Source: Anaerolineaceae bacterium (GTDB lineage: Bacteria; Chloroflexota; Anaerolineae; Aggregatilineales; Phototrophicaceae). From it: a stretch of 64,000 nt of DNA. The notes beneath the pieces were generated by a model. The model saw only the letters and a program-made list of their open reading frames with translations, did no database searches and was not told where the DNA came from. The first letter of the stretch is position 1; each line of letters starts with the position of its first letter. The stretch is taken from NCBI GenBank assembly GCA_002702065.1, contig NZXX01000002.1, positions 930,001 to 994,000 of the forward strand. Direction: 5' to 3'. This document shows positions 5,579-9,436 of the stretch, piece after piece. Position numbers and translations under genes: made by a program.

Positions 5579-6856
5579 TCAGAGCGCTTGCTCCGTTGCA
5601 GGCCTGCCCGCCCCGGCAATGCTGTGGATCGTGCCGGTGTTTTCGCGCCGGGAAAGAAAGACCACCGCGGTCGCAGCGACGGCGAGCAGCGCCACCGCCC
5701 ACAGCACCGGTTGGTAATGTCCCGCCCGGTCATAGAGCAGACTGGCCGCCAGCGGCGCTGTGGTGCCGGCGAGGGTGAGAAAGAGCGCCATGACGCTGGA
5801 GATGCGGCCATAGTGGGCGACCCCGTACAGCTCCGCCAGAATGGAGGGGCGCGCCAGTGTCACGGCACCCTGCGCGGCGCCAAACAGGAGAATGAATGCC
5901 CCGATGATGATGCCGGTCTGGCCCATCAGCAGGACGGATAACGCGACGGCCTGAAGCCCGAACACGCCGATGACGATCACACGGCTGGAAAAGCGGTGAT
6001 CAAGCGGCGCGAAAATGACACGCCCGACGACCTGCATAATGCCAATGCCACCGGTCGCCAGCGCCGCTGTACTGGACTCGATGCCGGTTTCAATCAGGAA
6101 GGGGATGAAGTGCACGCGAATCGCTGCTGCGGACAGCGAAATCAGGCCAAAGCTCAGGGTCAGCAGCCAGAAGGTGCGCCCGCGCAAGGCATCGCGGAAC
6201 TGGACTCCAGGCAGTGATTTCAGCGGTTCATCCTGAGAGATCGCTACGCCGTCCGGCTGCAAACCCAAATCTGCTGGACGCCCCCGTAACATGAGGGCAT
6301 GCAGCGGAATCGTCATGCAGGCCAGGAACAGGCCGAGAATGAGTACCGCTGTCCGCCAGTCGAATTCCCGCAGCAGCGCGTCCGCCAGTGGCAGGAAGAT
6401 GGTACTTGCCAGCCCGGCAGCAAACGTCACGACGGCCAATGCGGTGCTGCGCCGCCGCTGAAACCACTGGGCTATTACCGCAAATGCAGGCTCGTAGAGG
6501 ACTGCCGCCGCGCAGACGCCCAACCCGGCCCAGATCAGATAAAAGACGGTGCGCGTCGTCACCATTGACCATGCGATCACCAGCAGTGCTGCGCCTATGG
6601 AACCGACCGTCATCAGCTTTCGCGGCCCATGTTTGTCGATCCATGCGCCCACCGGGAAAGCCATCGCACCCGCCACCAGCCACATCAGGGAAAACCCGGC
6701 GGTCAGGTCCGCCCGTGACCAGCCGAGGTCGCGTTCCATAGGTGTGAGGAAAACCGAAAACGAATAATAGATGATCCCCCAGGAGATGGTTTCGGTGACG
6801 GCCAGCGTGATGGCGAGATACCATCCATAGTACGGTTTCGGGCGAATGCTCTGCAT
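5579..6856 (-). CDS. MFS transporter in the ArsR-controlled operon
   Basis: The 425-residue protein has about twelve hydrophobic segments and MFS features such as GAWIDKHGPRKLM in the loop between helices 2 and 3. It begins YYGWYLAITLAVTETISWG, like the monocarboxylate/oxalate-formate type MFS branch (family inference). It is the last gene of an operon headed by a cysteine-rich ArsR repressor and a flavoprotein, so its likely task is export of an arsenic, antimony or other soft-metal compound or of the flavoprotein's product. No arsenite pump of the ArsB/Acr3 type or arsenate reductase is nearby. Substrate assignment is inference only. Start ATG 6856 has a modest GGAAAAG upstream. Confidence 0.8.
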   Translation of the reverse strand: MQSIRPKPYYGWYLAITLAVTETISWGIIYYSFSVFLTPMERDLGWSRADLTAGFSLMWLVAGAMAFPVGAWIDKHGPRKLMTVGSIGAALLVIAWSMVTTRTVFYLIWAGLGVCAAAVLYEPAFAVIAQWFQRRRSTALAVVTFAAGLASTIFLPLADALLREFDWRTAVLILGLFLACMTIPLHALMLRGRPADLGLQPDGVAISQDEPLKSLPGVQFRDALRGRTFWLLTLSFGLISLSAAAIRVHFIPFLIETGIESSTAALATGGIGIMQVVGRVIFAPLDHRFSSRVIVIGVFGLQAVALSVLLMGQTGIIIGAFILLFGAAQGAVTLARPSILAELYGVAHYGRISSVMALFLTLAGTTAPLAASLLYDRAGHYQPVLWAVALLAVAATAVVFLSRRENTGTIHSIAGAGRPATEQAL

Positions 6857-6946: not shown

Positions 6947-8428
6947 CTATGAACAGCAGTCGCTGTCACAGCCGCAGGTCGTTGACTTGACTCCATCGCT
7001 GCAACAGGTGTCGTCGCAACCACACGCACGAGTCGCGGTCTGTAACCCAACTGGCTGCAAGGCTGCTTCCAGCGCAGACGGTTGCAATTTTAACCCGTTA
7101 ATGGGAATAGCGGACACCGACAACAACGCGGGCTGGCTGCTGGTTGTCCCACAGCAAGCCGCGCCTTCGCCTGCCAGGTCCGTGCTGCACACACCGGTTT
7201 CCGGCAGGTTCAGCTGGACATCGTGGGCCGCTTCCCAGTCGCCCACCAGCGCAGCCACCACTGAACGGACCTGTTCATAACCGGTTGCCAGCAGAAACGT
7301 CGGTGCGCGACCATAACTTTTCATGCCGACGATATAAAAGTCTTTCTCCGGCTGCCGCAGTTCGGCTTCACCATGAGGCCGCACCGTGCCACAGCTGTGG
7401 ATATTCGGGTCAATCATGGGGCCGAGTTCGCGCGTGCTTTCCAGCGCCGGGTCCAGGTCGAGCCGCAGTTCGCGCAGCATGTCGAGGTCCGGTCGGGCGC
7501 CGGTTGTGGCGATGATCTCGTCAACCGGGACCGACGTTGTTCCAGCTGGCGTTTCCCCGATGACATTGATGCCATCCGCCGCTGCCGCAATCTCACGTAC
7601 CCGGAACGGTGAGACGATTTGAATGTCCCCGGCATCCACATGGGCCTTGATGCGCCCGCCAAGCTGGCCGCGCGCTGGCAGCGCATCATCTTCGCCGCCG
7701 CCATACACTTGCCTCATGTTGGTGCCACGCATCGCCCAGATAATCGACGTATCCGCAAAAACCTTTTTAAGCTGTGCCAGTTCCAGCAGCGCGTTGATCG
7801 CCGAATGACCACTGCCGACAACGAGCACCCGCTGACTGGCATAGCGGTCACGCTGTTTGCCGAGGATATCCGGGATGCCATAGTAAATATGCTGGGCGTG
7901 GCGTTTTTCCCCGATGGCTGGCAGCCCACCGGACCCCAGCGGGTTGGGTTGATGCCATGTGCCGGAAGCATCAATCACGGCGCGGGCTTCGATCAGCGCT
8001 TCATTCTGATTGTCACACATCACATGCAAGACAAAGGGCGCGTCGTCCCGCCCGGAATCTTTCATCTTGTCGATATGGCGGCGGCTGACAGCGATCACCC
8101 GCGCATTCAGGTGAATGTGCTGCCGCACCGCTGGCAGTTGGCTGAATGGCACAAGATAGCGGTCGACCAATGCGTGACCGGTTGGCAGCTCCTTGAGAGG
8201 CGGCATCTGCCAGCCGTTGGCTTCCAACAAGCGGACCGATGCGCCATCGACGGTGAACTCCCAGGGCGAAAACATGCGCACGTGACCCCAGTTACGGATA
8301 TTGGCGCCGATGGCTGACCCGGCCTCAAAAACGATCGGGGTTTCGCCACGCTCAATGAGATGGGCAGCGGCTGCCAGCCCGACAGGCCCTGCACCAATCA
8401 CGGCGACGGGTAATGTTTGTGCTTCCAT
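6947..8428 (-). CDS. FAD/NAD(P)-binding oxidoreductase with duplicated cysteine tail
   Basis: The product has 493 residues. VIGAGPVGLAAAAHL near the N-terminus is the FAD-binding Rossmann fold, VLVVGSGHSAINALLELA the NAD(P)-binding one, and ATTGARPD the usual central linker, as in flavin monooxygenases/ArsO-like proteins. The last about 80 residues are unusual: a GVCSTD block with a Cys-Cys pair, then two copies of CGCDxxCC in the final 25 residues (eight cysteines). Such clusters can bind soft metals. AAGGAGA 6 nt before ATG 8428 fixes the start. A copy of the ArsR operator lies 85 bp upstream, so the gene can be controlled separately from arsR. A role in sensing, trapping or oxidising arsenic/antimony species is inference from context. 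Confidence 0.85.
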   Translation of the reverse strand: MEAQTLPVAVIGAGPVGLAAAAHLIERGETPIVFEAGSAIGANIRNWGHVRMFSPWEFTVDGASVRLLEANGWQMPPLKELPTGHALVDRYLVPFSQLPAVRQHIHLNARVIAVSRRHIDKMKDSGRDDAPFVLHVMCDNQNEALIEARAVIDASGTWHQPNPLGSGGLPAIGEKRHAQHIYYGIPDILGKQRDRYASQRVLVVGSGHSAINALLELAQLKKVFADTSIIWAMRGTNMRQVYGGGEDDALPARGQLGGRIKAHVDAGDIQIVSPFRVREIAAAADGINVIGETPAGTTSVPVDEIIATTGARPDLDMLRELRLDLDPALESTRELGPMIDPNIHSCGTVRPHGEAELRQPEKDFYIVGMKSYGRAPTFLLATGYEQVRSVVAALVGDWEAAHDVQLNLPETGVCSTDLAGEGAACCGTTSSQPALLSVSAIPINGLKLQPSALEAALQPVGLQTATRACGCDDTCCSDGVKSTTCGCDSDCCS

Positions 8429-8512
8429 CGATAATCTCCTTCCGACACAATCTTGCACCGTACCATGTTCATGACTGGTACAGCCGGTAGCGATAGGGGG
8501 TGTTTCGTCTTT

Positions 8513-8528
8513 ATCGTAAAAATACGAT
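8513..8528 (-). promoter_or_regulatory. Second ArsR operator, before the flavoprotein gene
   Basis: ATCGTAAAAATACGAT is a perfect inverted repeat (arms ATCGTA/TACGAT) and is the exact reverse complement of the site at 8871-8886 in front of the repressor gene. It lies in the 132-bp gap between the repressor stop and the flavoprotein start. Confidence 0.75.
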
Positions 8529-8560
8529 AAAAGGCGCAAAAAAGAGAGGCGAAGATCGCC

Positions 8561-8869
8561 CTAAAACAACATACCCGCCTGTGCCTTGAACCACGCGACA
8601 CTTTCCTCGCACAGACAATAGCACGTCGCCGGACCTTCCAGTGTCCCGCAGATGAGCCCGGCATCCCGCAGGACCTTCAGATGCTGCGAGACCGTTGCCT
8701 GTGCCAGCGGCAGCACCTCGACAATATCACCGGTAATGCACTGTGGATTCTCGCTCAGGTAACGAACGATTTGCATCCGTGCCGGATGACCCAGCGCTTT
8801 CATCATACGAGTCAGCCGCTGTTCATCCACTGTCAGGTCATACGATTTGAAGGTTTCTGTTGTTTCCAT
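8561..8869 (-). CDS. arsR: ArsR/SmtB-family repressor
   Basis: The 102-residue protein is a minimal winged helix: ALGHPARMQIVRYL (residues 25-38), recognition helix around QATVSQHLKVLRDAG (57-71), then a wing. Cysteines occur at 44, 74, 83, 85 and 87 (CYCLC), a pattern different from the classical ECVCDLC site of plasmid R773 ArsR, but consistent with a soft-metal or As(III)/Sb(III) sensor. The ATG at 8869 has no Shine-Dalgarno sequence; the operator and -10 region directly precede it, so the transcript is probably leaderless. Metal specificity cannot be told from the sequence; another thiophilic inducer is possible. Confidence 0.85.
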   Translation of the reverse strand: METTETFKSYDLTVDEQRLTRMMKALGHPARMQIVRYLSENPQCITGDIVEVLPLAQATVSQHLKVLRDAGLICGTLEGPATCYCLCEESVAWFKAQAGMLF

Positions 8870-8870
8870 G

Positions 8871-8902
8871 ATCGTATTTTTACGATAAAAGCCGGAATTG
8901 TC
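8871..8902 (-). promoter_or_regulatory. arsR promoter with overlapping operator
   Basis: TTGACA (8897-8902, minus strand) is followed after 17 bp by AAAAAT, which lies inside the 16-bp inverted repeat ATCGTATTTTTACGAT at 8871-8886. Repressor binding here would cover the -10 element. The expected transcription start falls at or next to the start codon at 8869. Confidence 0.7.
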
Positions 8903-9005
8903 AAGGGATTGGTCAGCTGACCATAACATTCGGGATTAATGAACGCGGATAAACGCATCAAACGGCGTGTGAGAGCCAGTTAATCAGGCGACAAAAACGA
9001 ATATT

Positions 9006-9085
9006 ATACTGTGTACTTGACAATACTGTGCGTTATACAGTATATTGACACTGTGTAGCACACAGTACTACAGGATGCACAGTAT
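9006..9085 (+). promoter_or_regulatory. padR promoter with operator array
   Basis: TTGACA (9017-9022) and TATATT (9041-9046) are 18 bp apart. Two inverted repeats overlap or follow them: ATACTGT/ACAGTAT (9023-9029 and 9037-9043) and ACTGTG/CACAGT (9050-9055 and 9061-9066). Further half sites are at 9006-9012 and 9079-9085, the last abutting the start codon. ATAC/TGT-type palindromes are typical of PadR operators, so autorepression is likely. Confidence 0.7.
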
Positions 9086-9436
9086 ATGACAGGTTTGCAT
9101 GAAGAAATAACCAGACTGCGATTGGAACTGCGGCGCGGGATAGTGGTCTTGGCCGTGCTCAGCCAGATGGACACGGCGCGCTATGGCTACAGCCTGATTC
9201 AGCAGCTTGCCGAACAGGGGTTGGATATTGAGGAAGGCACGCTTTATCCCTTGCTGCGGCGGCTGGAGAAGCAGGGTCTTTTGGAAAGCGAGTGGGAGGT
9301 TGGTGAATCGCGCCCTCGCAAGTATTACCGGATCAGCGCTACCGGACGCGAAGTGTTGTCCACACTGAAGGCGGACTGGTTCGAGACTGTTAACGTGATG
9401 CAAGGCATGTTGGATGGAGATAAGAAAGATGAATGA
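9086..9436 (+). CDS. PadR-family transcriptional regulator
   Basis: The 116-residue protein shows the PadR signature: LRRGIVVLAVLSQ, ARYGYSLIQQL, EGTLYPLLRRLEKQGLLESEW and RKYYRISATGRE. The wing and the C-terminal dimerisation helix are short, as in the PadR-s2 subgroup. It is preceded by an array of palindromes that probably serve autoregulation. It overlaps the next gene (HAAS membrane protein) by 8 bp; PadR-HAAS pairs are common and the membrane protein is thought to modulate the regulator or act with it. The inducer is unknown. The Shine-Dalgarno sequence is weak (AGGA about 10 nt upstream). Confidence 0.9.
   Translation: MTGLHEEITRLRLELRRGIVVLAVLSQMDTARYGYSLIQQLAEQGLDIEEGTLYPLLRRLEKQGLLESEWEVGESRPRKYYRISATGREVLSTLKADWFETVNVMQGMLDGDKKDE

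Follow-up and report, generated by a model that had tools for sequence, protein, structure and literature searches.

The main finding is an ArsV-like flavoprotein of 493 aa with a cysteine-rich C-terminal tail, encoded between an arsR gene and an MFS transporter gene in the window, that is, the whole 64,000-nucleotide stretch of DNA that was analysed. The best explanation, to which we give a probability of about two in three, is that these genes form an arsenic-inducible detoxification operon composed of arsR, an ArsV-type NADPH/FAD monooxygenase and an MFS exporter, with a tail that captures a metalloid and hands it over. We also consider it likely that the enzyme is of the known ArsV type and that its new element is the clade-specific doubled cysteine tail.

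The flavoprotein and its gene neighbourhood

The flavoprotein gene occupies 6947..8428 of the reverse strand, which also carries the neighbouring arsR and MFS genes, with its ATG at 8428 and its stop codon at 6949-6947. A Shine-Dalgarno sequence, AAGGAG, was read 7 nt ahead of the ATG (8436..8441). A match to Pyr_redox_3 (7e-16) identified the protein as a two-Rossmann FAD/NAD(P)H oxidoreductase, and both nucleotide-binding motifs are conserved in the family: GAGPVG for FAD (residues 12-17, 8378..8395) and GSGHSA for NAD(P)H (residues 205-210, 7799..7816). The upstream gene on the same strand (8561..8869) encodes an ArsR/SmtB-family repressor of 102 aa with conserved cysteines, which scored 67.8 bits to NF033788 and passed the cut-off of 55, so the claim of an earlier, sequence-only reading that a flavoprotein sits in an arsR operon was borne out. 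The downstream gene (5579..6856) encodes an ArsK-like MFS transporter of 425 aa, whose 154.7 bits to NF033733 (ArsK) lie below the cut-off of 400.

The same reading had called the flavoprotein ArsO-like, which did not hold in the strict sense, since the score to NF040505 was 53.3 bits against an equivalog cut-off of 425. Assignment to YpdA/Bdr was likewise rejected (52.9 bits to TIGR04018, cut-off 339.9), as was membership of MerA, whose CxxxxC active-site pair is missing from the body. Judged by gene order and family, the protein appears closest to ArsV and not to ArsO. ArsV, in work attributed to Zhang 2022 and Chen 2021, is reportedly a flavin monooxygenase that oxidises antimonite as well as methylarsenite and other trivalent organoarsenicals. 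PMC10080717 states that ArsV of Paracoccus sp. SY oxidises MAs(III) and that ArsW, ArsP or ArsK then carries out export; the ArsV papers are cited by title in PMC11719878.

A scan of genome contigs confirmed 127 relatives, from which 80 loci were kept, mostly from Chloroflexota and Bacillota with a few others, and a plasmid collection yielded 150 records, many from Actinomycetota and Alphaproteobacteria among them. The gene was patchy in the window genome (6.77 Mb) and its kin: 26 of 41 genomes had matches at E<=0.001, a relative more than 50% identical over most of the length occurred only in the genome that holds the window and in 12 of its kin, and the remaining matches were short nucleotide-binding stretches. 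The window protein was 54% identical to a homologue from Ensifer and 49% to one from Neotabrizicola (Paracoccaceae), in alignments that span the body.

When neighbour families were assigned on representatives (ArsA by eye), 49 of the 76 distinct genome loci had ArsR, ArsC, ArsB, Acr3, ArsN, ArsD or ArsA within 4 kb. Many of the homologues in sponge-type MAGs of Chloroflexota had no ars gene within that distance. Triads of arsR, flavoprotein and arsK/MFS genes were present at six loci (L111 and L115-L119), including Ensifer adhaerens (two plasmids), Neotabrizicola, Rhizobium rhizogenes, where the triad lies beside acr3, arsC and arsH, Bosea, where it lies beside arsH, and Hydrogenophaga. The order in the window is the same as in these triads, and arsV genes as a rule stand under arsR in an operon adjoining arsK or arsW. 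Identity of the window MFS protein with its alphaproteobacterial ArsK/MFS counterparts was 28% and 27%, and the ArsR proteins were remote relatives; since both partners are only remotely related, the flavoprotein is the constant element of the arrangement. Other settings were also seen. A PadR gene replaces arsR beside the flavoprotein in Roseomonas, the flavoprotein gene adjoins an MFS gene with arsR nearby on Streptomyces and Rhodococcus plasmids, and on a mobilizable plasmid of Staphylococcus from poultry litter it stands beside an arsR-family gene.

A cysteine-containing MarR gene (cluster C1) was found near the flavoprotein in 38 of the 76 loci, standing where Chloroflexota have ArsR, and it is possibly an arsenic-sensing MarR. 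One such MarR-family regulator (L084:3359-3817) has NCCTVGGC near its start and ACC near its end. A gene for a SigZ-like ECF sigma factor (cluster C22) lies beside or near the flavoprotein in L004 (854-1420), L033, L055 and L070; in L004 it is directly ahead of the flavoprotein and its product has a cysteine-rich C-terminus (CGSEVSQYRQITCGSQSSACNCSI). Cluster C7, comprising L108:3034-3270 and 15 other ORFs of 70-94 aa with no Pfam or NCBIfam family, recurs beside the flavoprotein in ars loci of Bacillota, and the one sequence inspected ends in CDMEVC. Furthermore, the arsinothricin N-acetyltransferase ArsN1a (cluster C5, L091:3340-3840 and others) often neighbours the flavoprotein in Bacillota, a hint that organoarsenical antibiotics may act as a selective agent.

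The cysteine tail across the family

The sequence-only reading had described two copies of CGCDxxCC in the last 25 residues and another Cys-Cys pair about 65 residues earlier. Both descriptions were accurate: the copies are CGCDDTCC at residues 469-476 (7001..7024) and CGCDSDCC at residues 485-492 (6953..6976), and the pair Cys425-Cys426 (7151..7156) lies 50 residues ahead of the first CC of the tail copies and 66 ahead of the last, with a lone Cys414 on its N-terminal side. The last 25 residues (469-493) contain 8 of the 13 cysteines of the protein, and no copy of CGCDxxCC arose in 20,000 shuffles of the flavoprotein sequence.

We then counted conservation in 98 distinct, aligned family sequences. 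Cys346 in HSCGTVRPHG (7391..7393; HSCGTVxPHG in the family) and Cys414 in LPETGVC at the start of the tail (7187..7189) were cysteine in 98 of 98, and the near-universal Cys425 and Cys426 in 92% and 96%, respectively. The body of the window protein has only two cysteines, Cys346 and the unconserved Cys138, and contains no CxxC or CxxxxC redox pair of the thioredoxin reductase or MerA type. The pattern LPETGVC...CC was found throughout the family, with further cysteines or CC pairs in most members and a terminal CC pair in many. Beyond this core the clusters are lineage-specific, with extra CC pairs in many Bacillota, CCGGPA...ACC...GCGC in several Pseudomonadota and a terminal CC in sponge-type Chloroflexota. 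On these alignments the whole family carries a cysteine-rich tail. The notion that it is unique to the window protein is not supported; what is special is the doubled CGCDxxCC of one Chloroflexota clade. The conserved tail fits metal(loid) binding, and it is best seen as a functional part, one that probably holds the metalloid.

The doubled module was found in the window protein and in L002, L003, L004, L027, L031, L032 and L033, and a single copy in L007 (the same protein as L036). In a maximum-likelihood tree built on the body with the tail removed, the doubled-module proteins made up eight of the nine rows of one branch (support 91/69), which was nested in a branch of 11 rows (97/87). The ninth row, L005, lacks the doubled module. 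A single gain followed by one loss is thus enough to explain the distribution, and the core activity does not depend on the module. Of the close homologues, seven share the doubled module, L005 lacks it and L007 has one copy. The outcome that the sequence-only reading named as a refutation, a tail missing from all close homologues, therefore did not occur. Among the sequences compared, the doubled CGCDxxCC is confined to one Chloroflexota clade. One carrier, L032, is a MAG labelled Bacteroidetes that places among Chloroflexota on the tree, which misbinning or transfer would explain. A DNA scan for CGC followed by D, E, G or similar and then xxCC hit 86 of 400 Chloroflexota genomes; its reversed-pattern control also hit many and translations were unchecked, which made the scan uninformative.

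Selection was assessed by aligning the codons of the eight genes with a doubled tail. Because synonymous sites were saturated (pS about 0.72-0.79), pN/pS was used. It was 0.22 in the body, 0.16 from LPETGVC to the CC pair, 0.50 in the linker (bootstrap 0.38-0.62) and 0.21 in the tail module (0.10-0.33). The eight tail cysteines showed no amino-acid change in the eight sequences while TGC and TGT alternated at seven of the eight positions, and the module was free of gaps where the linker varied freely in length. By this codon comparison the tail is kept under purifying selection as strong as that on the catalytic body, in agreement with the proposal that it is conserved rather than a product of chance: eight proteins at synonymous saturation have replaced none of its cysteines.

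Some relatives have in-frame stops close to their C-termini. Selenocysteine incorporation or read-through there was considered and rejected, as these are ordinary stops after a cysteine-rich tail and the downstream sequence is unconserved. The L095 homologue also has a Cys pair in an N-terminal extension (MTKTNNILSSGSDCCGTNV). The homologue in L082 (Peribacillus saganii) is broken by an in-frame TGA right before RAPTF and is either a pseudogene or the result of a sequencing error.

Regulatory sites and other arsenic genes

Between arsR and the flavoprotein gene we found the palindrome TTATCGTAAAAATACGATAA (8511..8530), a perfect match to TTATCGTA-N4-TACGATAA and a probable ArsR operator upstream of the flavoprotein gene. 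A second copy with one mismatch, also a probable ArsR operator, ends at the arsR start codon (8869..8888). The chance expectation in the window was 0.04 matches at up to three mismatches. The core ATCGTAN4TACGAT occurs only at these two sites in the 6.77-Mb genome, which led us to reject a wider regulon. Furthermore, eight related loci whose ArsR belongs to the same subfamily also have two sites about 350 bp apart (L003, L005, L008, L031, L032, L034, L035 and L037). These sites suggest that ArsR may repress both itself and the flavoprotein gene through the palindromes. ArsR orthologues have conserved cysteines in NPQC, in ICGT and in YC, the last with a further cysteine in most, and these could bind the inducer. 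A promoter-like TTGACA-17-AAAAAT (8876..8904, reverse strand) overlaps the arsR operator, as a match to consensus only and at chance frequency, and a terminator-like stem at 8561-8547 overlaps the arsR stop codon, such stems being at about chance frequency here. Repeated ACTGTG/ACAGTAT half-sites were also seen at 9000-9090 of the window, ahead of the PadR-like gene that lies at 9086, where they flank a promoter-like TTGACA-18-TATATT.

Other ars genes were sought in the window genome one family at a time. An arsenite methyltransferase gene, arsM, passed its cut-off (299 bits, cut-off 263) and sits in an arsR-arsM cluster (locus L161; G000:C9, around 423004-423681). The search of this genome for Acr3 found none, and that for LMW-ArsC gave a weak match only. 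ArsM could make methylarsenite, the proposed substrate of the flavoprotein, and the combination of arsM, an ArsV-like oxidase and an MFS exporter is suggestive of a coherent pathway. By eye, the arsR of L161 resembles the arsR beside the flavoprotein in L002, L006 and L038 (cluster C25). The cluster at L161 (ORFs 1116-2603) consists of arsR, arsM and a 112-aa ORF with RLCCPF, and the N-terminus of ArsM, SSCCNSDCGCS, carries a CC/CGC cluster in reverse order relative to the flavoprotein tail.

Mechanism, alternatives and known systems

The proposed mechanism begins with ArsR on the two near-identical palindromes; a trivalent arsenical bound to its cysteines would release it from them. The nucleotide-binding motifs suggest that NADPH reduces FAD. 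A trivalent, thiol-seeking metalloid, most likely methylarsenite and possibly antimonite or arsenite, would be bound by the tail cysteines, as their conservation and the linkage to ars genes suggest; the thiol ligands would be Cys414, Cys425-Cys426 and the two CGCDxxCC clusters, the latter in this clade only. The metalloid may then pass to the flavin site, probably through the invariant Cys346, which is unplaced in the structural model. There a flavin hydroperoxide would transfer oxygen to give the less toxic pentavalent form, by extension from the reports on ArsV, and the MFS protein would export substrate or product. For the tail, the nearest working analogy comes from MerA: a C-terminal pair of cysteines binds Hg(II), folds into the catalytic cleft and delivers the metal to the active-site Cys (PMC4500099). 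A more detailed version, which we consider less likely than not, makes the tail an intramolecular metallochaperone that moves a trivalent arsenical from the CGCDxxCC clusters to Cys425-Cys426 and Cys414, then to Cys346 and into flavin oxygenation.

An AlphaFold2 prediction from an alignment of 52 sequences reached a mean pLDDT of 78. In it the nucleotide-binding domains were modelled confidently, the loop 326-349 that holds Cys346 with low confidence and residues 412-493 mostly with pLDDT below 50, so the position of the tail relative to the flavin is not readable from the model. Among solved structures, a search for a relative of the tail found none. In Foldseek the best PDB match was the bacillithiol disulfide reductase YpdA (19% identity, TM 0.81 by target), and ornithine hydroxylases and flavin-containing monooxygenases ranked lower among other pyridine-nucleotide flavoproteins. 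With YpdA on top and monooxygenases below, the fold does not discriminate a reductase from a monooxygenase, and gene order speaks for the monooxygenase. Several points weigh against the main explanation: this fold match, the low identity of the MFS protein and its score below the ArsK cut-off, the sponge-type Chloroflexota homologues with no ars gene nearby, the missing doubled module in L005 and the low model confidence for the Cys346 loop and the tail.

The match to YpdA is the first argument for reading the protein as a thiol/disulfide reductase, in which electrons run from NADPH through FAD to C-terminal Cys pairs that act as a redox relay like that of high-Mr thioredoxin reductase. The tail would then reduce either a disulfide or an adduct of thiol and arsenic, and resistance would come from restored thiols and not from metalloid oxidation. 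Some thioredoxin reductases end in a CC pair, as do many members of this family, and the invariant lone Cys346 leaves some room for a relay. However, the body offers no CxxC or CxxxxC to accept the flavin electrons, the YpdA score is 53 against a cut-off of 340 and the gene order matches ArsV operons, and we consider this reading unlikely. It is also quite unlikely that the whole tail is a mere sink or affinity handle on an enzyme that acts on free metalloid without it, its lineage-specific clusters sequestering As(III), Sb(III) or other soft metals or shielding the enzyme from poisoning. Such a role would agree with the wide variation of cluster number and type between lineages, the loss of the doubled module in L005 and the unconserved linker, but Cys414 is invariant and Cys425 and Cys426 nearly so, which argues for a role of at least the proximal tail in the core function; for the distal module alone, a sink is compatible with the main explanation. 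A functionless chance extension at the C-terminus, for which only the absence in L005 speaks, is extremely improbable: the module is gap-free, no cysteine is replaced in eight genes and selection matches that on the body, so this reading fails.

Collectively, the analysis places in arsenic detoxification an oxidoreductase that is generically annotated ('NAD(P)-binding domain-containing protein', 'FAD-dependent oxidoreductase') and widespread in Chloroflexota, Bacillota, Actinomycetota and Pseudomonadota, if the ArsV-type detoxification reading is right. It names a cysteine core (Cys346, Cys414, Cys425 and Cys426) and lineage-specific clusters, all directly mutable, and defines a compact probable ArsR operator with two sites only in a 6.8-Mb genome. 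If the tail hands a metalloid to the flavin, delivery by a flexible cysteine tail would extend from reduction, as in MerA, to oxygenation, and the metallochaperone version, if true, would make the protein an oxidative monooxygenase counterpart of Hg(II) delivery by MerA, with the cluster number tuned per lineage.

Among known systems, ArsO is also a two-Rossmann flavoprotein of ars operons, but the match to NF040505 stops at residue 325, ahead of Cys346 and the cysteine tail. YpdA/Bdr (7a76) is the best fold match over the nucleotide-binding domains, but at about 19% identity and with a chain of 325 residues it is without the tail. MerA, compared here only for how it works, is a flavoprotein that takes up a soft metal on its C-terminal cysteines and passes it on to the flavin site (PMC4500099), whereas the CxxxxC pair of its body is absent from the window family. 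The likeness to ArsV lies in the FAD and NAD(P)H Rossmann motifs, in the position of an FAD/NADPH oxidoreductase gene flanked by arsR and an MFS gene of the ArsK/ArsW type and in the Ensifer and Paracoccaceae homologues with the same gene order. The ArsR and MFS proteins of the window differ in being only distant relatives of their alphaproteobacterial counterparts, and to the ArsV plan the window protein adds the doubled CGCDxxCC tail of a single Chloroflexota clade.
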